A DNA stretch of 64,000 bases from Marixanthomonas ophiurae (GTDB taxonomy: Bacteria; Bacteroidota; Bacteroidia; Flavobacteriales; Flavobacteriaceae). Location: positions 992,001 to 1,056,000 of the forward strand of contig NZ_QVID01000001.1 in the NCBI RefSeq assembly GCF_003413745.1. Reading direction: 5' to 3'. The notes under the pieces were generated by a model. It made no database searches. It was not told where the DNA came from and saw only the letters and a list, made by a program, of their open reading frames with translations. Positions 2,248 through 45,035 of this stretch are shown here, piece after piece (positions within the stretch are counted from its first letter, which is position 1; the number at the start of each line of letters is the position of its first letter). Made by a program: the position numbers and the translations under genes.

Positions 2248-3147
2248 ATGATTACACCTGAATTTTTACAAAAAGGCGATACCGTCGCAATTGTTTCCAC
2301 TGCTCGAAAAATTTCAAAAACAGAATTAAAACCCGGTTTAGACTTGTTAGAAGGATGGGGCTTGAAAGTAATTTTAGGAAAAACAATCGAAGCCGAACAA
2401 AACCAGTTTGCAGGAGATGATGGATTACGAACAGCTGATTTTCAAGAGATGTTAGATAACCCAAAGGTAAAAGCCATTTGGTGTGCGCGAGGTGGTTATG
2501 GAACGGTTCGGATGGTGGATGGACTGAATTTTTCAGAATTCAAAAAAAATCCGAAGTGGGTTATTGGGTATAGCGATATTACGGTGCTGCATTCGCACAT
2601 TCATAATTTGGATGTAGAAACGATGCACGCTGATATGCCAGCAGATATTAAGAAGAGAACAGTAGAAGCAGCAACTTCCATAAAAAAAGTTCTATTTGGA
2701 GAAGAATATAAAATTTCATTTCCTTCCGAAGAAAAAGAATTAATCCGAACCGGAAAAGTAACAGGGCAATTGGTGGGCGGTAACCTTTCGGTTTTGTATT
2801 CTATTTTAGGAAGTACTTCGTCAGTAAATACCGATGGAAAAATACTTTTCATAGAAGATTTGGATGAATACCTATATCACATTGACCGAATGATGCAAAA
2901 CCTTAAACGCAGCGGATTTCTGAAAAACCTTTCTGGATTGGTAGTAGGTGGTTTGAGCGATATGAATGATAATACGATTCCTTTTGGAAAAACGGCTGAG
3001 AAAATTATTGCTGAAGTTGTTTCAGAATATGAGTACCCGGTTTGTTTTAATGCTCCGGCAGGTCATATAAAAGACAATCGCGCATTGATAATGGGACGAA
3101 ACGTTACGTTGGAAGTGACTGAAAAGGAAGCGAAACTTACTTTTTAA
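2248..3147 (+). CDS. LD-carboxypeptidase (peptidase family S66)
   Basis: Cytoplasmic serine peptidase that removes the terminal D-alanine from muropeptide tetrapeptides during peptidoglycan recycling. The 299 residues show the family triad: Ser109 in GYSDIT, Glu203 in FIEDLDE and His273 in GHIKDNRAL. The ARGGYGTVR motif near residue 81 is also typical of the family. I place the start at 2248 (MITPEFLQKGD), not at the in-frame ATG at 2206: family members begin just before the GDxVAIVS strand, and the extra 14 residues look like untranslated leader. The gene stands alone, divergent from metG. There is no export signal, as expected for the cytoplasmic LdcA type. Confidence 0.92.
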   Translation: MITPEFLQKGDTVAIVSTARKISKTELKPGLDLLEGWGLKVILGKTIEAEQNQFAGDDGLRTADFQEMLDNPKVKAIWCARGGYGTVRMVDGLNFSEFKKNPKWVIGYSDITVLHSHIHNLDVETMHADMPADIKKRTVEAATSIKKVLFGEEYKISFPSEEKELIRTGKVTGQLVGGNLSVLYSILGSTSSVNTDGKILFIEDLDEYLYHIDRMMQNLKRSGFLKNLSGLVVGGLSDMNDNTIPFGKTAEKIIAEVVSEYEYPVCFNAPAGHIKDNRALIMGRNVTLEVTEKEAKLTF

Positions 3148-36536: not shown

Positions 36537-36574
36537 TGTGTATTTTTTACACAGCTGTACCTGTTTTCTATACA
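36537..36574. promoter_or_regulatory. Two dyads: candidate enhancer site for the first PepSY-like gene
   Basis: Dyad A (36537-36553) is the perfect palindrome TGTGTA-N5-TACACA. Dyad B (36556-36574) is TGTACC-N7-TATACA. Their centres are 20 bp apart. Dyad A ends 109 bp before the -24 element at 36663, a normal upstream activating position for a sigma-54 enhancer-binding protein. The same arrangement recurs before the next two genes. Confidence 0.6.
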
Positions 36575-36662
36575 GTTTTCCGCTTTTTTATAAAAAATCG
36601 AATACCATTTAAAATACTGAAAACAAGTATTTTAGACTGATATTTTATAAAAAATTATTATG

Positions 36663-36678
36663 TGGCACTACTTTTTCA
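36663..36678 (+). promoter_or_regulatory. Sigma-54-like -24/-12 promoter, first PepSY-like gene
   Basis: TGGCAC-TACTT-TTTCA fits the consensus TGGCAC-N5-TTGCW in every fixed position except the -12 G, which is T. It is repeated almost identically at 37312 and 38154. The start codon lies 55 bp downstream. Confidence 0.6.
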
Positions 36679-36732
36679 TTATACAATTTAAATAACAAAA
36701 AAAACAATAACAAACCTATAAACTTAAAAACT

Positions 36733-37062
36733 ATGAAAAAGTCAATATTAGCAATCGCAATCACGCTGGGATCCCTAACAGCAGTACAAGCACAAGACAA
36801 AGCAATCGCACAATCTTCTACCAATGAAGCAAAAGCGACTTTAAGTGCTCAAGCTCCAGCCCAAGATAACTTTAAGCAAATTAAAGCAACCGAATTACCA
36901 AAACCAGTATTGGAAGCCGTAGCCAAAGAATTTGAAGGTGCTACTGTATCTAAAGCTTACAAAAATGAACAAGGCGAATACAAACTGGTACTTGCAACAG
37001 CTGAGAAAGCAGAACAAACCGTTTATGCAAACAGTCAAGGTGAGTGGATTAAGAAGCAGTAA
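36733..37062 (+). CDS. Small exported PepSY-like protein, copy 1
   Basis: A 109-residue protein with a signal peptide ending in QAQ near residue 20. A variable Ala/Gln/Ser-rich stretch follows, then a ~65-residue domain: FKQIKATELPKPVLEAV, ATVSKAYKNEQGEYKLVLAT, TVYANSQGEW. This pattern (LP...V, pGA.v.KAYK, Y.l.l, vy.n..GeW) resembles the PepSY-like/BLIP-like fold of small periplasmic proteins; the function is unknown. Copies 2 and 3 follow directly, each with its own promoter and terminator. It contains no cysteine or catalytic motif. Confidence 0.8.
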   Translation: MKKSILAIAITLGSLTAVQAQDKAIAQSSTNEAKATLSAQAPAQDNFKQIKATELPKPVLEAVAKEFEGATVSKAYKNEQGEYKLVLATAEKAEQTVYANSQGEWIKKQ

Positions 37063-37089
37063 GCTGCAGTAGTTAGATTCAATACTTCT

Positions 37090-37119
37090 GAGGATGTCCA
37101 ATAGGGCATCCTCTTTTTT
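37090..37119 (+). terminator. Terminator of PepSY-like copy 1
   Basis: The 10-bp stem GAGGATGTCC / GGGCATCCTC (one G-T pair), loop AATA, is followed by six T residues. It is related in sequence to the terminators of copies 2 and 3. Confidence 0.88.
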
Positions 37120-37184
37120 ATGCTTTTTCCAGATAATAAGTAGAAGGTTGGCTTTTACAGAATAGATTCTCAATAAACGCTTTT

Positions 37185-37221
37185 TGTGGGAATATTACAC
37201 AATTGTGTAGATGTTTACACA
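37185..37221. promoter_or_regulatory. Two dyads: candidate enhancer site for the second PepSY-like gene
   Basis: Dyad A (37185-37201) is TGTGGG-N5-TACACA and dyad B (37204-37221) is TGTGTA-N6-TACACA, with centres about 20 bp apart. Dyad A ends 110 bp before the -24 element at 37312. Additional overlapping symmetry is present (TACACAATTGTGTA at 37196-37209 and ACACA-N5-TGTGT at 37217-37231). The preceding AAACGCTTTTTGTG is shared with copy 3. Confidence 0.6.
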
Positions 37222-37311
37222 CTTTATGTGTTGAATTAAAAAACAAGTAAAATCTTGTTATCCTAATGATAACAGTACTTTTAAAGGGTTTTAGGTGAGG
37301 TTTTCATTTAA

Positions 37312-37327
37312 TGGCACTACTTTTTCA
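37312..37327 (+). promoter_or_regulatory. Sigma-54-like -24/-12 promoter, second PepSY-like gene
   Basis: TGGCAC-TACTT-TTTCA, identical over 16 bases to the copy 1 element, with the start codon 52 bp downstream. Confidence 0.6.
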
Positions 37328-37378
37328 CTATATAGAATAGAATTAGAAATAATAATAACAACATAAAATTTTAAAACT

Positions 37379-37744
37379 ATGAAAAAGTTAATTTTTGCAA
37401 CCGCACTAGCAATAGGATCATTAACCGCAGTAAATGCACAACAAGATGCCGCAATAGCACAAGCATCGACTGACGAAGCAACGATTACAAAAGCTGTCGA
37501 TACTCAAGAAACCGTTGCACAAGACTTTAAAGAAATTAAAGCGACTGAATTACCAAAACCAGTATTAGAAGCAGTAGCAAGTGATTTTAAAGGCGCTACC
37601 GTATCTAAAGCATATAAAAATGCTAAAGGAGAATATAAAGTTGTTATTGCAACAGCAGATAAAAAACAAAAAACAGTATATGCAAGTGCTGACGGTGAGT
37701 GGATGAAGAAAAAAATGAAAATGAACAAAAAAAGTAGACAATAA
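37379..37744 (+). CDS. Small exported PepSY-like protein, copy 2
   Basis: A 121-residue paralogue of copy 1. The signal peptide reads MKKLIFATALAIGSLTAVNAQ. The core domain is nearly identical to copy 1 (IKATELPKPVLEAV, GATVSKAYKNAKGEYKVVIA, KTVYASADGEW). It differs in a longer linker and an extra basic tail, KKKMKMNKKSRQ, which could bind an acidic partner or envelope polymer. Like its sisters it is a single-gene transcription unit. The function is unknown. Confidence 0.8.
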   Translation: MKKLIFATALAIGSLTAVNAQQDAAIAQASTDEATITKAVDTQETVAQDFKEIKATELPKPVLEAVASDFKGATVSKAYKNAKGEYKVVIATADKKQKTVYASADGEWMKKKMKMNKKSRQ

Positions 37745-37773
37745 TTTGAATTAGCCACATTCAATACTTTTAA

Positions 37774-37802
37774 GGGGTGTCCAAACGGACATCCCTTTTT
37801 TT
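37774..37802 (+). terminator. Terminator of PepSY-like copy 2
   Basis: GGGGTGTCC / GGACATCCC stem with one G-T pair, loop AAAC, then seven T residues. The next 220 bp (37803-38025) are AT-rich, and I see no gene or motif there. Confidence 0.88.
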
Positions 37803-38025
37803 ATGCGCGGTTTTTAAAAAGTAATACTATACGTTCTGAAGTTTGCATCTTTTGTGAAGTGTTTCGATTTGCTTCAACGTTTATATTGAGCAAGGTTATG
37901 TGATTTTTAAAAAGACTTGGCTGTTTTTGTCTAGAATAAAAAGTGTTTTAATAAAAAATAGTTTCGAGTCTACAACTTTCACCTCTTCAAATAAATTAAT
38001 TTCTCTTTTATGATTAAACGCTTTT

Positions 38026-38063
38026 TGTGTGAAAATTATACAGGTGTTTAGTGATTTTACACA
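38026..38063. promoter_or_regulatory. Two dyads: candidate enhancer site for the third PepSY-like gene
   Basis: Dyad A (38026-38042) is TGTGTG-N5-TATACA and dyad B (38045-38063) is TGTTTA-N7-TACACA, with centres 20 bp apart. Dyad A ends 111 bp before the -24 element at 38154. Spacing and order match the sites before copies 1 and 2. Confidence 0.6.
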
Positions 38064-38153
38064 GCTTTAAAATAGCTGTAAAATAAGTAGAATAGTTGTT
38101 GTTTTAGTATTGATAGGGGCTTTGGTTAAGTTAAATCTTCTTCGTAATCTTCG

Positions 38154-38169
38154 TGGCATTACTTTTTCA
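38154..38169 (+). promoter_or_regulatory. Sigma-54-like -24/-12 promoter, third PepSY-like gene
   Basis: TGGCAT-TACTT-TTTCA differs from copies 1 and 2 by one base. The start codon chosen at 38221 lies 51 bp downstream, which supports that start over the upstream in-frame ATG at 38110, since 38110 would precede the promoter. Confidence 0.6.
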
Positions 38170-38220
38170 CTATACAGAACAGATTTAGAAAACGAAATAA
38201 TAATTATAAAATTTAAAATT

Positions 38221-38556
38221 ATGAAAAAGTCAATTTTAGCAATCGCAATCGCAATCGCATTAGGATCATTAACCGCTGTAAACGCACAAGATGGAGCAAT
38301 TGCTCAAGCATCAAGTGATCAAGCAACATTAGCTCAAAAAGCACAGGCTTCAGAAGCGCAAGGATTTACTGAGGTTAAAGCTTCAGAATTACCAAAAGCA
38401 ATTTTAGAAGCTGTATCTACAAAGTATGATGGAGCAACTGTATCTAAAGCATATAAAAATGCTAAAGATCAATATAAATTAATGCTTGCAACAGCTGACA
38501 GTAAAGAGAAAACTGTTTATGTAAATAGTGAAGGACAGTGGTTACAGACTAAGTAA
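38221..38556 (+). CDS. Small exported PepSY-like protein, copy 3
   Basis: A 111-residue paralogue of copies 1 and 2, with signal peptide MKKSILAIAIAIALGSLTAV. The core domain is more divergent (VKASELPKAILEAV, ATVSKAYKNAKDQYKLMLA, KTVYVNSEGQW). The signal peptide contains a small in-phase repeat (AIAIAI), a possible sign of replication slippage. I start at 38221 because this aligns with the sister proteins. An upstream ATG at 38110 would give an implausible N-terminus and lies ahead of the promoter. The last of the triplet lies 117 bp before the regulator gene. Confidence 0.8.
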   Translation: MKKSILAIAIAIALGSLTAVNAQDGAIAQASSDQATLAQKAQASEAQGFTEVKASELPKAILEAVSTKYDGATVSKAYKNAKDQYKLMLATADSKEKTVYVNSEGQWLQTK

Positions 38557-38583
38557 TTTCACTTGATTATATTCGATATATTT

Positions 38584-38612
38584 GGGATGTCCTTCGGGGC
38601 ATCCCTTTTTTT
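38584..38612 (+). terminator. Terminator of PepSY-like copy 3
   Basis: GGGATGTCC / GGGCATCCC stem (one G-T pair) with the stable tetraloop TTCG, then seven T residues. It separates the target genes from the regulator gene. Confidence 0.9.
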
Positions 38613-38647
38613 ATGAAAACTTTAAAAGTTTGCTCCTACCATAGCTG

Positions 38648-38655
38648 TATTTTTG
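38648..38655 (+). promoter_or_regulatory. Bacteroidetes-type -7 element for the sigma-54 activator gene
   Basis: TATTTTTG fits TAnnTTTG; a TTTG at 38629-38632 is a possible -33 element (spacer 15, slightly short). It suggests vegetative expression of the regulator. Perfect inverted arms TTTTGTGTG (38651-38659) and CACACAAAA (38678-38686) surround the start codon. Confidence 0.4.
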
Positions 38656-38673
38656 TGTGGAGACAAAATTAGC

Positions 38674-40080
38674 ATGACACACAAAATTCTTATTGTTGAA
38701 GACGATATCGCTTTCGGAAAAATGCTGGCCACATTTTTAGAGCGTAAAAATTTTTCGGTGACCACAACCAGTACCGGTACAGACGGTAAAGAACACCTTA
38801 AGAAAGAAACGTTCGACTTACTGATTACCGATTTAAAACTACCCGACACCAACGGAATGGCACTGTTGGAGCACGTAAAAGAAACCTACTCCAATACCCG
38901 CGTTATCCTTATGACAGGTTATGCTGAAGTAAACACAGCGGTCGAAGCCATTAAAAAAGGAGCCTTGGATTATATTTCAAAACCTTTCCGTCCAGAAGAA
39001 TTGTTAATGATTATAGAACAAGCTTCTGAAAGTCTTGAAAAGCCTGTTACAGAACATTCAAAGAAATCTTCAAGCCAACAGAAACCTGCCTCCTCCTCAA
39101 GCACAGAACCAAAAGCGGTACAAAAAGAAGAATCGAAACCGAAACCATCGGAAAGCAATTTCGTTACCGGAATTAGTGAATCTTCAAAAAAATTCAATCA
39201 GTATTTAAAGTTGGTAGGTCCTACCGATATGTGTGTACTTATACAAGGCGAAAGCGGTACTGGAAAGGAAGTAGCGGCAAATGCCATTCACAAATTTAGT
39301 AATCGAAGTAATAGACCATTTGTAGCCGTAGATTGTGGTGCTATTCCCAAGGAAATTGCTTCTAGTGAGTTTTTTGGTCATGTAAAAGGAAGTTTTACGG
39401 GTGCTGTAAACGATAAAAAAGGTCATTTTGAAGCAGCAGATACCGGAACGTTATTTTTAGATGAAGTAGGAAACCTCTCCTACGAAAATCAAGTGCAATT
39501 GCTCCGTGCCTTGCAAGAAAGGAAAATAAAGCCAGTTGGGAGTAATACAGAGATACACGTAGATGTACGGATTATTTCCGCTACTAATGAAGATTTAACC
39601 AAAGCAGTTGAAGAAGGAAGGTTTCGGGAAGATTTATATCATCGTTTAAATGAATTTTCAATTCACATCCCTTCGTTGCGTGAACGTAGTGAAGATTTAT
39701 TTTTATTTACCGAATTTTTCTTAGAACAAGCCAACCAATCATTAAATAAAAATGTGATGGGTCTTTCTAAAGAGGTAGAAGCAGCCTTTAAACAATACGC
39801 TTGGCCAGGAAATCTTCGCGAGTTGAAAAATATTATAAAAAGGTCTGTATTGTTAACACCTGGCGAACAAATACCGCTAGATGTAATCCCGCGGGAAGTG
39901 GTGACAGCTAAAGAAACAGAAACAAAAACAACTGATTTTTCAAAAGAAAGTAATGAAAAACAATTGATTTTGAATGCTTTAAAAGAAACAGAAAATAACA
40001 AATCGCGTGCTGCCAAGCTATTAAACATCACCCGGAAAACCCTCTATAATAAATTAGAACAGTACGATATTGAGCTTTAG
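38674..40080 (+). CDS. Sigma-54-dependent response regulator (NtrC family enhancer-binding protein)
   Basis: A 468-residue activator. The receiver domain (1-120) has phosphoacceptor D53 and K103. A Ser/Pro/Lys-rich linker follows (about 125-162). The AAA+ domain (about 163-400) has Walker A GESGTGK at 192-198, the sigma-54 loop GSFTGA at 239-244 (usually GAFTGA), and Walker B TLFLDE at 259-264. The last 40 residues form a Fis-type helix-turn-helix (NNKSRAAKLLNITRKTLYNKL). The start MTHKILIVEDD is preferred to an ATG 21 bp upstream. It sits behind three sigma-54-like promoters and converges on a hybrid kinase, its likely partner. Confidence 0.95.
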   Translation: MTHKILIVEDDIAFGKMLATFLERKNFSVTTTSTGTDGKEHLKKETFDLLITDLKLPDTNGMALLEHVKETYSNTRVILMTGYAEVNTAVEAIKKGALDYISKPFRPEELLMIIEQASESLEKPVTEHSKKSSSQQKPASSSSTEPKAVQKEESKPKPSESNFVTGISESSKKFNQYLKLVGPTDMCVLIQGESGTGKEVAANAIHKFSNRSNRPFVAVDCGAIPKEIASSEFFGHVKGSFTGAVNDKKGHFEAADTGTLFLDEVGNLSYENQVQLLRALQERKIKPVGSNTEIHVDVRIISATNEDLTKAVEEGRFREDLYHRLNEFSIHIPSLRERSEDLFLFTEFFLEQANQSLNKNVMGLSKEVEAAFKQYAWPGNLRELKNIIKRSVLLTPGEQIPLDVIPREVVTAKETETKTTDFSKESNEKQLILNALKETENNKSRAAKLLNITRKTLYNKLEQYDIEL

Positions 40081-42554
40081 TGGTCTTGTTGCAAAGCAGT
40101 AAGCAATTTATTTATTTCAACCTTTAAATCCTCAAAAAGGAAGGGAAGCTCTTTATTTCCCTCTTCTGAAATAACTTCTAAAGTTTCCAAGAGTGGAATT
40201 ACTTTTTTGGCACTAATCTGTCGGCACATGGTCAACATTCTATGTACGGTTTGGCCCACATTTTCTAATTTTTCTCTTTCTACAAACCGCTCCAATTCAG
40301 CTATATCTTTTTTAGTTTGGGTATAAAAAACCTGCAAGACATCATCTAAGGCTTCATCAGTATCTAGAAACGATCGTAATAGGGACAAATCATATAACTC
40401 ACTCTTTTCGTGTCTAACAGTCTGGATGGATTTGTCTTTAAGTGCATCTTCTGAAGGATATGTTTTAATTTTTTTGGATGAATTTGAAACGAAAGAAGGG
40501 AGCACTTTCTCTAAAACCAGTGCTAAGTTTTTTTTGGTAAACGGTTTTTGTAATACTTCAGAGAAACCTTTGTCCAGATAATTTTGTCGGGAGTGTTCTC
40601 GGCTTCCAGTCATCGCAATTATAGGCTGGTTGCTATAATTTTTTATGGCTCCATTTTTTAAGTGTTTTAAAATTTCAAAACCACTAGTTGTTGGCATTTG
40701 TATATCAGTCAATACAAAATCAAAATAGATTTCTTTAGCTTTTTCAAAAGCAGAGAATTTTTCGAAATCATGTACTTCAATGTTCATTTGCCCAAATAAT
40801 TCAGAAAGCATAGTTCGCATTGCGGGATCATCATCAAAAACAACCGCTTTCAATCCTTTAAAGACTGTTTCAGGTTTTTTTGTAAGTTTCCGAACTGCCC
40901 GATCAGATTTTTTTAAAGGAATTTTTAATGTAAACGTACTCCCTTTGTTGGGTTCGCTTTTCACTTTAAGGCTCCCGTCAAGCAGACTAGCTAACTTCTT
41001 TGAAATGGCCAATCCAAGTCCATAACCCCCAAATTTTTTACCCGTATCGGCTTCAGCTTGGGTAAATTCTTTAAAAATGAGTTGTTGTTTTTCTTCTGAA
41101 ATACCAATCCCTGTATCGATTACATCGATTTTAACTCTAACTGATTTTTTTCTGGCTTTTTGTAAAGTGGCTTTTAGTTCAATGCTTCCGGTTTCAGTAA
41201 ATTTAAAAGCGTTCCCAACCAGATTATTTAGAATTTGTTGCATTCGCAATGGATCGCTTTCAAAGACTTTTTCTTGTAATTCAGGAGCTATGGTAACCAA
41301 AAGTTCCACTTTCTTTTCTGAATACATATCCCGATACGTTTCTGTTGTTTGCTGCAATAGATTTTCCAACGAAAATGGTACCGACTCCATTTTTAATTTT
41401 CCTGCTTCTAATTTTGAAAAATCAAGCAAATCATTCACTAATTTCGAAACGTATTCAGATCCTGAATGAATTTGGTTTACATAGTGATGTTGTTTTTCTG
41501 AAAGCGGCGTGTTTTCCATCAAGCCAGTGTAACCCACAATGGTGTTTAAAGGGGTTTTAAGGTCGTGGCTAACGGTAGCTATTAATTGTTCCCGACTTTT
41601 AAGTAAGTCTTCAGCATATTTTTTTGATTTTTCAAGCGATTGTTTAAAACGTTCGGCTCTAAAAAAGTCACTTAAAATAAAATAGGTAAACAATAAAATT
41701 ACTACGAATCCAACCACGGCTGCACCTTGTAAAATAGTGACCGTTCGTGCTACCGAAGCTTCTCTTTTGGTTTTTTCTAGGTTGTTTAGTTTTGTGTTTT
41801 CTGCTTCAAAATTGGTAATGAGGAGTCGTAGCTGAGAAGATAAGGTTAGATCACTTCTAATTAACTCATTTTCTTTTTGTTGAAGCGAGCGCTGGGCTCT
41901 CGAATTTTCACGTTTAGCTTCAGCAACAAGATAACGGGATTGTGCCAACATAGAATCGACCATACGGGCCTGTACTTGGGTGGTATCTACCTCGTTGTTC
42001 TGGTTTATTATATCAATGTAAGAGTTCCAAAACGAACGTTCTTTTGGAGTAAGGGCAGCAGGATTTTCAACAAACGTTTCCAAGGTGAGTTTGCCCATGG
42101 AGTTATCCAGCTTTTTGAACTCATTTAAAATATCGTCTAAAGAAGTGTCTTTACTATTGGTGATTTTTAAAATGCGGAGTTGCTCTATATTTTTTTTCTT
42201 TTCGGTAAGCAGTTCACGCACGCTGTCCAGTTGTCTTTTCTGGCTTTCATCATTGGTGAGTAACTTTATGGTTTCTACCTTTTCAAAGAGCGAGTCACTT
42301 AATGTTATGTATTTTTTGTAATCTTCCTCTTTTTGGGTTAGCAGTGCCAAACGTGAAAAACTATCGGCTTCATAAACCAGATTAACTAGTGATCCTGTAG
42401 CAAAAAACTTTTTTTCCTCGGTTTTTTCGGTAGGATTAATAACATAGTTTTTAAATTCAGAATAGATAAAGTATCCTACTACAACAGCCAATGCTCCTAA
42501 AACCAGATAGCTTAGGATGATTTTAAAGGTAAACCTGTTTTTGGTTTTTGGCAT
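40077..42554 (-). CDS. Hybrid sensor histidine kinase with receiver and Hpt domains
   Basis: An 825-residue inner-membrane kinase. TM1 lies at about 11-31, then a periplasmic helical sensor (about 35-265, coiled-coil-rich), and TM2 at about 271-294. The HisKA domain has phosphoacceptor H330 in ATVSHDLKTPLN, followed by HATPase_c (NNLVGNAFKFTETG, DTGIGI, GYGLGLAIS). The receiver has D617 in LTDIQMP. The C-terminal Hpt domain has H771 in GQTVHRMLT. The order H330-D617-H771 gives a complete phosphorelay whose last step needs an external receiver, most likely the sigma-54 activator next door. The stop codons of the two genes overlap (40077-40080). Confidence 0.94.
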   Translation of the reverse strand: MPKTKNRFTFKIILSYLVLGALAVVVGYFIYSEFKNYVINPTEKTEEKKFFATGSLVNLVYEADSFSRLALLTQKEEDYKKYITLSDSLFEKVETIKLLTNDESQKRQLDSVRELLTEKKKNIEQLRILKITNSKDTSLDDILNEFKKLDNSMGKLTLETFVENPAALTPKERSFWNSYIDIINQNNEVDTTQVQARMVDSMLAQSRYLVAEAKRENSRAQRSLQQKENELIRSDLTLSSQLRLLITNFEAENTKLNNLEKTKREASVARTVTILQGAAVVGFVVILLFTYFILSDFFRAERFKQSLEKSKKYAEDLLKSREQLIATVSHDLKTPLNTIVGYTGLMENTPLSEKQHHYVNQIHSGSEYVSKLVNDLLDFSKLEAGKLKMESVPFSLENLLQQTTETYRDMYSEKKVELLVTIAPELQEKVFESDPLRMQQILNNLVGNAFKFTETGSIELKATLQKARKKSVRVKIDVIDTGIGISEEKQQLIFKEFTQAEADTGKKFGGYGLGLAISKKLASLLDGSLKVKSEPNKGSTFTLKIPLKKSDRAVRKLTKKPETVFKGLKAVVFDDDPAMRTMLSELFGQMNIEVHDFEKFSAFEKAKEIYFDFVLTDIQMPTTSGFEILKHLKNGAIKNYSNQPIIAMTGSREHSRQNYLDKGFSEVLQKPFTKKNLALVLEKVLPSFVSNSSKKIKTYPSEDALKDKSIQTVRHEKSELYDLSLLRSFLDTDEALDDVLQVFYTQTKKDIAELERFVEREKLENVGQTVHRMLTMCRQISAKKVIPLLETLEVISEEGNKELPFLFEDLKVEINKLLTALQQDH

Positions 42555-42663
42555 GGTTCAAAAATACATACAATGTAAACGACAGCATATTAATGATATG
42601 ATAAAAAAGTACGATTACGCTTTTACAATCTTAAAGTCTTGATTACTTTTGCCGCACATCTCA

Positions 42664-42751
42664 AAGGGGTGCCTATTTTAATTTGTTTTTTAAATTATTA
42701 GAAGCTGAGATGATACCCATAGAACCTAGAACAGGTAATGCTGTTTAGGAA
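42664..42751 (+). promoter_or_regulatory. TPP riboswitch (THI element)
   Basis: The conserved blocks of the thiamine pyrophosphate aptamer appear in order: GGGGTGCC (42666-42673), GCTGAGATGATACCC (42704-42718), GAACCT (42722-42727) and ACAGGTAATGCTGTTTAGGA (42731-42750). A variable AT-rich P3 arm separates the first two blocks. It lies 110 bp before the TonB receptor start and is followed by a terminator-like hairpin. TPP binding should switch the receptor off. Confidence 0.92.
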
Positions 42752-42772
42752 AAGAACAACAAGCAGTTGTAG

Positions 42773-42860: not shown

Positions 42861-45035
42861 ATGAAATCCTTATTTATTTCGGCTGCTTTACTAACAACAA
42901 CCATAGCAGCCATTGCACAAGAAACACAGCAAGATTCAACCAAAGTTGAAAGCTTGGAAGAAGTTTTTATTCAGGCAGTTCGCGTAGACGCAGACTCACC
43001 AATTACCCACTCTAACCTCGATGAAGAGGAAATTGAAACCCGAAATTTAGGACAAGATGTTCCTTATTTACTTAACTATTTACCGTCTGTAGTGACTACC
43101 AGTGATGCCGGAGCCGGTGTTGGGTATACCTATATTCGTGTAAGAGGTAGTGATGCCTCTCGAGTGAATGTAACACTAAATGGAATCCCCTATAACGATT
43201 CTGAAAGCCAAGGAACTTTTTGGGTAAATATGCCAGATTTTGCTTCTTCTATTCAAAACTTACAGTTACAACGGGGTGTAGGTACATCAAGTAATGGCTC
43301 TGGAGCATTTGGAGCGAGCTTGAATATTTTAACCGACGGAACTTCTGAAGAGGCTTATGGTGAAATTTCAAATTCATTTGGTTCATTCAACACCCGAAAG
43401 CACAATGTGAAATTTAGCACAGGTCTTTTAAAAGATCGCATAGAAATTGCTGGACGGTTATCCAAAATTGAATCAGATGGATATATTGACAGGGCAAGTT
43501 CCGATTTAAAATCCTATTTTTTGCAAGGAGCTTATAAAGACAAAAACACCTTAATAAAAGTATTAACCTTTGGTGGAACCGAAGAAACCTATCAAGCTTG
43601 GAACGGTATCGATGCGGAAACATTGGAAAATGACCGAACGTTTAATCCGTCAGGAATGTACACAGATGAAGATGGAAACACTCGTTTTTATGATAATGAA
43701 GTAGATAATTACGCACAAGATCATTATCAAGTTCTTTGGAACCAGCGTTACGATAACAATTGGAGTAGTAACGTTGCATTAAATTATACCTACGGAAGAG
43801 GTTATTTCGAACAATATAAAGAAGACGAGGATTTTGATACCTACACATTTGACCCTATTGAAATAGGAGGCGATACTATTAACACTACCGATTTAATACG
43901 TCGCCGTTGGTTAGATAATGATTTCTACGCCGTAAATGCCAATGTAAACTACAAAGATGATGCGCTTAATATTTCCGCAGGAGCATTTTTTAGCACTTAC
44001 AAAGGGGATCATTATGGTGAAGTAATTTGGGCACGCTATGCAAGTGATTCTGAAATACGAGATCGATATTATTTTAGCGATGCTACAAAAAACGAATTTA
44101 CAACCTTTGCAAAAGCTACCTATCGATTTAATAATCAATGGCAGGTGTTTGGAGATTTACAAGGACGGTTTTTAAGTTATGAAACTGGAGGAATTACATC
44201 AGATGTTGTGCCAATTGATGTAGATGAAACGTATAGCTTTTTTAACCCCAAAGCGGGTGTTTCATTTCAATTGAACGATGCCAATCAGTTTTATGCTTCC
44301 TACGGAAGAGCACATCGCGAACCTACCCGAAATGATTTTGAAGAAGATATTACCACACCAGAAAAATTAGACGATTTTGAATTAGGGTGGCGTTTTGCTT
44401 CAGAAAAAGTTCAAGTAAATACCAATTTGTTTTATATGGATTACAAAGATCAGTTGGTGCTTTCTGGCGAGTTGAATGATGTAGGCGCACCGCTTCGAAC
44501 TACCAGTGGTGAAAGTTATCGTTTAGGGCTAGAAGTGGATGCCACTATTGCTATTACAGAAAAAATAAGCATTCGTCCTAATGTAGCGCTAAGCTCTAAT
44601 AAGAATGTAGATTTTGTAACCTCTCAAGATGGCGAATTAGTGAATCTTGGAAATACAAATATCTCCTTTTCACCAGAAATTGTAGCTGGAAATATGCTAG
44701 AGTACCGTCCAGTAAAAAATGTACAACTAGCTTTATTGTCTAAGTTCGTGGGCGAACAGTTTATGGGAAATATTGACAGTGAGGTTTCAAAACTGGATAG
44801 TTTCTTTATAAATAACTTCAATATTGCGTATCGTTGGGACAATGTGCCTTTTGTAAATGAAATTCTGTTCACGGGATTAGTGAACAACATTTTTAATGTA
44901 GAATATGTTTCCAACGGATACTTTTTCACGTTTGATGGTGTAAACGACCAAGGAGATGTTACCACATTTGAAGGTGCAGGATATTACCCACAAGCTAAGA
45001 CTAATTTCTTAGTAGGGGCTACGGTTAAGTTTTAA
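42861..45035 (+). CDS. TonB-dependent outer-membrane receptor, probably for thiamine
   Basis: A 724-residue outer-membrane receptor. It has a signal peptide (MKSLFISAALLTTTIAAIAQ), a probable TonB box near SLEEVFIQAVR, and a plug domain (about 50-160: DVPYLLNYLPSV, YIRVRGSDASRVNVTLNGIP, GTSSNGSGAFGASLN). A 22-strand barrel follows, ending in the aromatic terminus NFLVGATVKF. The TPP riboswitch immediately upstream is the evidence for thiamine or a precursor as substrate; such regulated receptors are known in Bacteroidetes. It lacks the N-terminal carboxypeptidase-like extension found in SusC-type receptors. Confidence 0.9.
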   Translation: MKSLFISAALLTTTIAAIAQETQQDSTKVESLEEVFIQAVRVDADSPITHSNLDEEEIETRNLGQDVPYLLNYLPSVVTTSDAGAGVGYTYIRVRGSDASRVNVTLNGIPYNDSESQGTFWVNMPDFASSIQNLQLQRGVGTSSNGSGAFGASLNILTDGTSEEAYGEISNSFGSFNTRKHNVKFSTGLLKDRIEIAGRLSKIESDGYIDRASSDLKSYFLQGAYKDKNTLIKVLTFGGTEETYQAWNGIDAETLENDRTFNPSGMYTDEDGNTRFYDNEVDNYAQDHYQVLWNQRYDNNWSSNVALNYTYGRGYFEQYKEDEDFDTYTFDPIEIGGDTINTTDLIRRRWLDNDFYAVNANVNYKDDALNISAGAFFSTYKGDHYGEVIWARYASDSEIRDRYYFSDATKNEFTTFAKATYRFNNQWQVFGDLQGRFLSYETGGITSDVVPIDVDETYSFFNPKAGVSFQLNDANQFYASYGRAHREPTRNDFEEDITTPEKLDDFELGWRFASEKVQVNTNLFYMDYKDQLVLSGELNDVGAPLRTTSGESYRLGLEVDATIAITEKISIRPNVALSSNKNVDFVTSQDGELVNLGNTNISFSPEIVAGNMLEYRPVKNVQLALLSKFVGEQFMGNIDSEVSKLDSFFINNFNIAYRWDNVPFVNEILFTGLVNNIFNVEYVSNGYFFTFDGVNDQGDVTTFEGAGYYPQAKTNFLVGATVKF

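Follow-up and report, generated by a model that had tools for sequence, protein, structure and literature searches.

ZraPSR of the Enterobacteriaceae combines a sensor kinase, a sigma-54 activator and the gene of a small periplasmic protein with a sigma-54 promoter, and is linked to envelope stress; ZraP is described as a periplasmic chaperone that binds zinc, and divergent sigma-54 promoters serve zraSR and zraP (PMC4987338). In DbfQRS of Vibrio cholerae, the gene of a small exported PepSY protein lies beside a kinase/regulator pair, and dbfQ is predicted to be co-transcribed with dbfRS (PMC12714742). QseE/QseG/QseF with GlmY has a sigma-54 activator with upstream activating sequences, an accessory envelope protein and no transcriptional autoregulation; QseG is a lipoprotein of the outer membrane whose gene belongs to the qseEGF operon, and the abstract does not name it as a sigma-54 target (PMC6075780). 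In Flavobacterium psychrophilum, 5'-end sequencing has mapped sigma-54 promoters, one of which was also tested by mutagenesis; the corresponding regulon (motif SM4) is tied to envelope stress and to the quality control of proteins, and it takes in exported proteins without a known function (PMC9723704). Predicted sigma-54 regulons have also been surveyed across phyla (PMC12316311). Each of the four systems resembles, in some of these respects, a locus of Marixanthomonas ophiurae that lies in the window analysed here (a stretch of 64,000 nucleotides, bases 992001-1056000 of contig 1; genome 3.3 Mb) and comprises three tandem genes for small exported PepSY-like proteins (the small genes), the gene of an NtrC-type sigma-54 activator and, convergent with it and overlapping it by 4 bp, the gene of a hybrid histidine kinase (Table 1).

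With a probability of about 0.8, we read this locus as a dedicated sigma-54 phosphorelay module whose targets would be the small genes. A preliminary description of the same DNA had already put forward the three promoters as targets of the adjacent activator, and this assignment is now supported by gene order, relay residues, a palindrome upstream of the promoters, the co-occurrence of small genes and activator, and the retention or absence of the regulatory sites in relatives. Its NtrC-type activator and convergent hybrid kinase are likewise confirmed by domains and coordinates.

Promoter elements and upstream palindromes

The three near-identical TGGCAY-TACTT-TTTCA elements of the preliminary description were all located upstream of the tandem genes, and its statement that they stand at the same distance from the ATG is right to within 3 bases (70, 67 and 67 bases from TGG to ATG for small genes 1, 2 and 3). 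The exact sequence TGGCAYNNNNTTTTCA has five matches in the 3.3-Mb genome, three of them the small-gene elements and the other two inside open reading frames (ORFs). When up to one mismatch is allowed, the element pattern has 77 genomic matches versus 57 for a reversed control, and TGGCAYN5TTTCA with one mismatch has 8 matches in the 64-kb window versus 3.5 expected. Taken by itself, the pattern is nothing special in this genome once a mismatch is tolerated, and was hence never used alone; the significance of the element rests on position, repetition and conservation.

In a family set of 74 small-gene relatives, where the pattern TGGYAY-N7-[TCG]C was sought at -100 to -28, the element precedes 46 genes (shuffles: mean 0.3, largest 3), compared with 2 of 369 control ORFs of at least 150 amino acids (aa). 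These 46 come from 62 first or well-separated small genes; the 12 that follow another small gene at 150 bp or less have none. One locus is counted twice in the element, palindrome and TAnnTTTG sets, L080 and L116 being apparently the same contig (equal length, equal upstream sequence). The three genes of the window are paralogues, and the same-genus genomes G054 and G274 have two copies and one copy, so that the likeness of the three promoters could in principle be a mere trace of recent tandem duplication, free of functional constraint. We find this barely credible, since both element and palindrome persist across genera that have diverged, and all 12 of the copies that closely follow another are without the element.

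No element was found within 150 bp upstream of 42 activator genes or 41 kinase genes, and transcriptional autoregulation through the element therefore seems unlikely. Within the same distance, 17 of the 42 activator and 16 of the 41 kinase genes have a TAnnTTTG box, which is found within 100 bp of 3 of the 74 small genes and corresponds to the sigma-A -7 consensus given in PMC9723704. Such a box before the activator gene of the window (Table 1) suggests that this gene would not be driven by sigma-54. Each small gene, by virtue of its own element and its own terminator-like hairpin, looks like a separate transcription unit; the hairpins were absent from the preliminary description.

The elements have the geometry of sigma-54 promoters, with GG at -24, C at -12 and 10 bases from GG to the -13/-12 pair, but not the classical G at -13 (TTGC), which is replaced by T in all three window elements. 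The sigma-54 label consequently leans on geometry, on groES of the same genome and on some outgroup versions. In this genome, groES (G000:C1:1393491-1393754, L228) is preceded by TGGCATAGTTTCTGC, that is GG-N10-GC, in agreement with the listing of groES-groEL of F. psychrophilum with a sigma-54-type promoter (PMC9723704), and two outgroup promoters (L133 and L138) have the classical GC at -13/-12. Because the spacing is kept, and GC occurs in groES and in these outgroups, T at -13 is, judging from the sequences, a variant inside an otherwise recognisable sigma-54 geometry. Besides a single rpoN, the genome has five strong sigma-54 activator domains.

A feature missing from the preliminary description is a palindrome upstream of the -24 box, with the consensus GTGTAA-N3-TTACAC and often, by eye, further TTACAC-like half-sites nearer the promoter; small gene 2 has an extra TTACAC about 20 bp downstream of its predicted upstream activating sequence (UAS). 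The palindrome is present with at most two mismatches at 41 of the 46 promoters (shuffles: 0.6), a count that is partly circular, the consensus having been derived by eye from the very sequences scored. Its near-fixed position and the co-retention tests given below are free of that circularity: at the family promoters, the centres mostly fall near -104, -116 or -128 from TGG. A palindrome at such a distance is the layout expected for an activator working remotely on sigma-54 polymerase. In the outgroups, the palindromes are apparently drifting, by eye, towards forms like GTGGAA-N3-TTCCAC.

Table 1. Features of the locus, in window coordinates.
Feature	Position	Strand	Remarks
Predicted UAS, small gene 1	36538-36552	.	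GTGTAT-TTT-TTACAC, 1 mismatch; centre -118 from TGG; position conserved in relatives
-24/-12 element, small gene 1	36663-36678	+	TGGCAC-TACTT-TTTCA
Small exported PepSY-like protein 1	36733-37062	+	109 aa
Terminator-like hairpin and T run 3' of small gene 1	37090-37113	+	
Predicted UAS, small gene 2	37186-37200	.	GTGGGA-ATA-TTACAC, 2 mismatches; centre -119
-24/-12 element, small gene 2	37312-37327	+	TGGCAY-TACTT-TTTCA
Small exported PepSY-like protein 2	37379-37744	+	121 aa
Terminator-like hairpin and T run 3' of small gene 2	37772-37797	+	
Predicted UAS, small gene 3	38027-38041	.	GTGTGA-AAA-TTATAC, 2 mismatches; centre -120
-24/-12 element, small gene 3	38154-38169	+	TGGCAT-TACTT-TTTCA
Small exported PepSY-like protein 3	38221-38556	+	111 aa; ATG start preferred to the mechanical 148-aa ORF from TTG
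Terminator-like hairpin and T run 3' of small gene 3	38584-38605	+	Parts small gene 3 from activator gene
TAnnTTTG box (TATTTTTG) 5' of activator gene	38648-38655	+	Read by eye
NtrC-type sigma-54 activator	38674-40080	+	Receiver D53, AAA+ with GSFTGA, Fis-type helix-turn-helix (HTH); Pfam domains
Hybrid histidine kinase	40077-42554	-	All-helical N-terminal sensor region, HisKA H330, receiver D617, Hpt-like (histidine phosphotransfer) H771

Linkage of activator, sites and small genes

The trio of small gene or genes, activator and convergent kinase is complete in 33 of the 40 family loci fetched, among them L088, where about 2 kb separate activator and kinase. The comparison of neighbourhoods in relatives envisaged in the preliminary description shows a gene order that is conserved in the family and beyond the Flavobacteriaceae. 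A scan of named genomes based on the activator alignment gave 80 loci; among the 59 of these that were listed, 17 have the same order (small gene, activator, convergent kinase), 6 of them in Flavobacteriaceae, 9 in other named genera (Pontibacter, Nafulsella, Dyadobacter, Cyclobacterium (weak), Algoriphagus, Pelobium, Pedobacter (2) and Segetibacter) and 2 in unplaced Bacteroidetes metagenome-assembled genomes. From its sequence, the locus is thus a compact signalling module recurring across Bacteroidota. A different arrangement was seen in loci of Phocaeicola, Parabacteroides, Bacteroidales and Prevotella (L161, L163, L164, L166 and L168), where the activator relatives are at 40-42% and a kinase-like ORF, with a tblastn match of about 2 kb, lies immediately upstream on the same strand.

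Across 397 family genomes, with E<=1e-6 for a small-gene relative and E<=1e-110 for an activator orthologue, 121 have the former and 119 the latter: 114 have both, 7 the small gene only, 5 the activator only and 271 neither. Neither these counts nor those of the retention test were corrected for kinship. The retention test used a looser element than the 74-gene set ([N]GG[CTA]A[CT]-N7-[TCG]C) and covered 43 activator-positive genomes, namely those of the 114 with fetched loci and not a random draw, together with 6 of the 7 activator-negative ones (in the seventh, G119 (L241), the small gene lies at a contig end with no usable upstream sequence). At least one small gene is preceded by the looser element in 37 of the 43 activator-positive and in none of the 6 activator-negative genomes; element and palindrome together are present in 30 of the former and, again, in none of the latter (Fisher p 0.002, ignoring kinship).

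The clearest activator-less case, as far as sequence goes, is G086. Its small gene is still flanked, as usual, by the DUF4301 and TonB-receptor genes; the locus has lost activator and kinase, neither regulatory site is there, and the proteins of the genome that best match the activator look like paralogues (38% over the full length, 44-45% over part of it). Orphan small genes near DUF4301 and TonB-receptor genes, with neither activator orthologue nor regulatory sites, were seen in this genome (L107/L237) and in G176 (L238). Conversely, nine small-gene loci are displaced, lying either on a different contig from the activator or at a long distance from it, and both sites persist at six of them (L082, with the activator about 245 kb away, L109, L100, L246, L111 and L255).

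These distributions bear on two other explanations of the sites. The element might be bound by another sigma factor or regulator, with the adjacent activator acting elsewhere, as could be argued from a -12 box that departs from classical GC and from the seven ECF (extracytoplasmic function) sigma factors reported in F. psychrophilum besides sigma-54 (PMC9723704), which makes other sigma factors probable here as well. This we regard as highly improbable in view of the GG-N10-[T/C]C spacing, the GC versions in outgroups, the near-fixed distance of the palindrome and the absence of both sites in the 6 activator-less genomes tested. Alternatively, the palindrome, which is tied to the activator by sequence conservation only, could be the site of a repressor or of some other regulator rather than the activator's enhancer. 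That too is improbable: its distance to the promoter suits an enhancer from what is known of this activator family, element and palindrome are absent in 6 of 6 activator-negative genomes, and both are kept at 6 of 9 displaced loci despite an activator that lies elsewhere.

A strict grammar of enhancer plus promoter has 8 matches in the genome and none in the reversed control. The three small genes account for 4 of the 8; the other 4 fall within ORFs of 120-1034 codons, on either strand, and one of these (L208) sits 129 bp before another ORF. The 'self-contained' regulon of the preliminary description thus fits as far as tested, the strict grammar finding no further intergenic target in the genome, though degenerate sites would escape it. 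In relatives, the nine matches away from small genes that were checked (L201, L202, L204, L207, L209, L211, L219, L222 and L225; for G063 only part of such matches) are all in ORFs. The canonical TGGCAYN5TTGCW has 5 matches in the genome against 4 in the control, and all five overlap ORFs. One canonical site, TGGCATACACCTTGCT at G000:C2:359819-359834 (L200), coincides in part with the 3' end of an ORF, and 62 bp further on starts the gene of a 217-aa exported-looking protein; from its sequence, the site is a possible further sigma-54 promoter.

Several observations weigh against a dedicated module, in addition to the partly circular palindrome count. The classical GC is departed from in nearly all of the 46 elements, where the base at -13 is T in 37, C in 7 and G in 2. 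The strict grammar lacks specificity in some relatives, its matches and those of the reversed control standing at 7:1 in G054, 3:3 in G027, 2:1 in G090 and 7:5 in G063. Five genomes have the activator and no small-gene match, and 13 of the 43 activator-positive genomes fail the joint test for element and palindrome, 6 of them having no element as written. Two of the displaced loci that keep both sites (L111 and L255) pass only under the looser element, and the three others (L244, L247 and L096) fail the joint test, each with a palindrome of at most two mismatches upstream nonetheless. Finally, the Hpt match of the kinase is below the Pfam cut-off (17.6 vs 24.6 bits).

The relay, the small proteins and possible outputs

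The activator exceeds the Pfam cut-offs for PF00072 (Response_reg), PF00158 (Sigma54_activat) and PF02954 (Fis-type HTH). Among 34 aligned activators, D53 and the HTH residues R454-N459 are invariant, as are G239 and F241-A244 of the GAFTGA loop, present here as GSFTGA, with S240 almost so. GSFTGA is an acceptable variant of GAFTGA. The kinase has the Pfam domains HisKA, HATPase and receiver, and the relay residues named in the preliminary description (H330, D617 and H771) hold up, all three being invariant in 35 aligned kinases. Its N-terminal region is predicted to be all-helical, with a mean predicted local distance difference test (pLDDT) score of 78.5, and a Foldseek search with it was uninformative (best E 0.013, TM 0.27). 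The nearest activator among named genomes is that of the flavobacterium Aequorivita aquimaris (73%). Assignment as a ZraR equivalog was ruled out (355.2 vs 760 bits, NF007689), as was GlrR/QseF (344.7 vs 763 bits, NF011695 GlrR).

Small proteins 2 and 3 are 65% and 59% identical to small protein 1, and the N-termini of all three are signal-peptide-like by eye. A search of the genome with the small protein finds the three genes and two weak matches (E 0.002 and 0.05), and one to seven matches are found per genome. None of the three proteins reaches the gathering score of Pfam PepSY_like (PF11396): small protein 3 is at 13.9 vs 28.3 bits (E 0.067), and no PF11396 match is listed for small proteins 1 and 2. 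Matches to PF11396 at E<=0.01 are found in 29 of 63 family members, and a PDB search with the family profile gives chains annotated as PepSY-like periplasmic proteins at E about 1e-5. The modelled C-terminal domain consists of one helix and a small sheet (core pLDDT about 90) and aligns to PDB entries with Z 8.3 for 3u1w (1.7 A over 59), 7.9 for 4hbr and 5.8 for 3db7 (VIA-align; the weak small-gene matches of L137 and L156 were excluded from the structure alignment), while Foldseek with the small protein gave nothing at E<=0.001 (best E 0.041). Since a middling Z of about 8 combines with the sequence match, the fold is probably PepSY/BLIP-like, which implies no function.

For the working of the dedicated module, we infer binding, phosphotransfer, sigma-54 dependence and an envelope signal, as follows. 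The helical N-terminal region of the membrane hybrid kinase would serve to sense a condition, and phosphate would pass from H330 to D617, to H771 and on to D53 of the activator. The activator would then bind the palindrome (GTGTAA-N3-TTACAC), which in most cases lies 104-128 bp ahead of the -24 box, and open sigma-54 polymerase at TGGYAY-N7-[T/C]C. The output would be one to seven copies per genome of an exported PepSY-like protein, delivered here by three promoter-gene-terminator units, with amplification achieved through target copy number and not through autoregulation. In the least certain step, the small proteins may act as stress effectors in the periplasm and, in addition, exert feedback on the kinase, as the accessory proteins of other systems do; we would give this role slightly less than even odds.

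The small proteins could instead be primarily feedback regulators of the kinase, with the physiological output elsewhere in the genome. This would follow the logic of DbfQ, a small periplasmic PepSY protein that binds the sensor domain of its kinase and tips the kinase towards phosphatase activity (PMC12714742), and of QseG, which binds and stimulates QseE (PMC6075780), and it would fit the co-occurrence of small gene and activator. We judge it unlikely, if well worth keeping in view, given that the strict grammar yields no other intergenic target, degenerate sites aside, and that a small gene persists in G086, a genome devoid of an activator orthologue, where a pure feedback part would be unneeded.

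In two relatives the output may be of another kind. Downstream of a -24/-12 element that lies upstream of the activator, an ORF-less stretch is found in Capnocytophaga leadbetteri (L125, 8531-8905) and in G023 (L249, 2299-2690), a genome that is activator-positive and has no small-gene match. The longest stop-free runs are 34 codons in L249 and 39 in L125. The two stretches are 83% identical (237/285), compared with 59% upstream (80/135) and 52% beyond the terminator (68/130), and each ends in a terminator-like hairpin, right before which lies a fully conserved block of 37 bases. A search of Rfam with the L125 stretch gave nothing at E<=1. The enhancer is less convincing here: the L249 palindrome has 3 mismatches, and L125 has just a GTGTAATTACAC with no 3-base spacer, which the scan rejected. 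From sequence, the stretches are candidates for a sigma-54-dependent non-coding RNA replacing the small gene; in F. psychrophilum, one sigma-54 promoter precedes a putative regulatory RNA (PMC9723704). One may then speculate on a phylum-level relay with a fixed core of activator and promoter and an exchangeable output, usually amplified PepSY-like proteins and RNA in two genomes. We hold this to be quite unlikely, the more so as the palindromes before the RNA candidates fit the consensus poorly. In the two genomes, an RNA of a few hundred nucleotides would be transcribed from a promoter of this type, comparable to GlmY under QseF; if true, the relay would be a general, as yet unnamed envelope-response system of Bacteroidota.

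Remnants of targets may also exist. On the reverse strand of L252 (G089), at about 2670-3080, an element and a palindrome with 2 mismatches precede an apparent C-terminal remnant of a small gene (GEWIKA) and a terminator, in what seems from its sequence to be a decayed target gene. In G309 (L250), TGGTACAATTTTTC, the spacing of which is wrong for the strict pattern, is followed by a terminator-like hairpin with no ORF between them (by eye).

Beyond the kinase gene, a TPP (thiamine pyrophosphate) riboswitch-like aptamer was observed at 42655-42768 of the window (+), 5' of a TonB-dependent receptor gene at 42861. The match has E 1.5e-5 but, at 35.4 bits, falls short of the gathering score (54.3), and nothing in the Rfam scan of the window from 34 to 46 kb reaches its gathering score. 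The aptamer suggests that the receptor imports thiamine or a precursor.

Comparison with known systems

From its sequence, the module is of a known kind, a sigma-54 two-component switch with a small periplasmic protein; it would work in the manner of ZraPSR or QseEGF, with PepSY-like proteins as the output, although its activator, by the equivalog scores, belongs with neither ZraR nor GlrR/QseF. Our literature searches, to which most subscription papers were out of reach, found no description of it, nor an established function for small PepSY-like exported proteins of Bacteroidota. Genomes that lack the activator, and target genes that lie away from it, amount to a natural experiment on the module, and the variant with T at -13 bears on how sigma-54 sites are to be searched for in Bacteroidota.

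Unlike ZraPSR, the module has a PepSY-like output, a hybrid kinase with a receiver and an Hpt-like end, and regulator genes with no element. ZraP itself is reportedly a repressor of ZraSR, according to the title of a reference cited for that system. A sigma-54 activator, an enhancer and a hybrid relay, all present or predicted in the module, are not mentioned for DbfQRS in the text available to us, the main text of which contains no occurrence of 'Bacteroid' (PMC12714742). The outputs of QseF include a small RNA (PMC6075780), whereas an RNA output is only suggested here, in the relatives L125 and L249. As for the small proteins, the BLIP/PepSY-like proteins BVU2987, BT0923 and BDI_1975 of PF11396 (DUF2874) show a weak sequence likeness to the family profile and a similar C-terminal fold; BVU2987 has tandem structural repeats (PMC2954215), whereas the small proteins have one alpha/beta unit of about 65 residues. 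In the SM4 regulon of F. psychrophilum, finally, activators are left unassigned to promoters, and PepSY occurs nowhere in the main text (PMC9723704). The module described here would join such unassigned flavobacterial sigma-54 promoters with small PepSY-like proteins, bringing together a predicted enhancer, a promoter, a relay and a target set.

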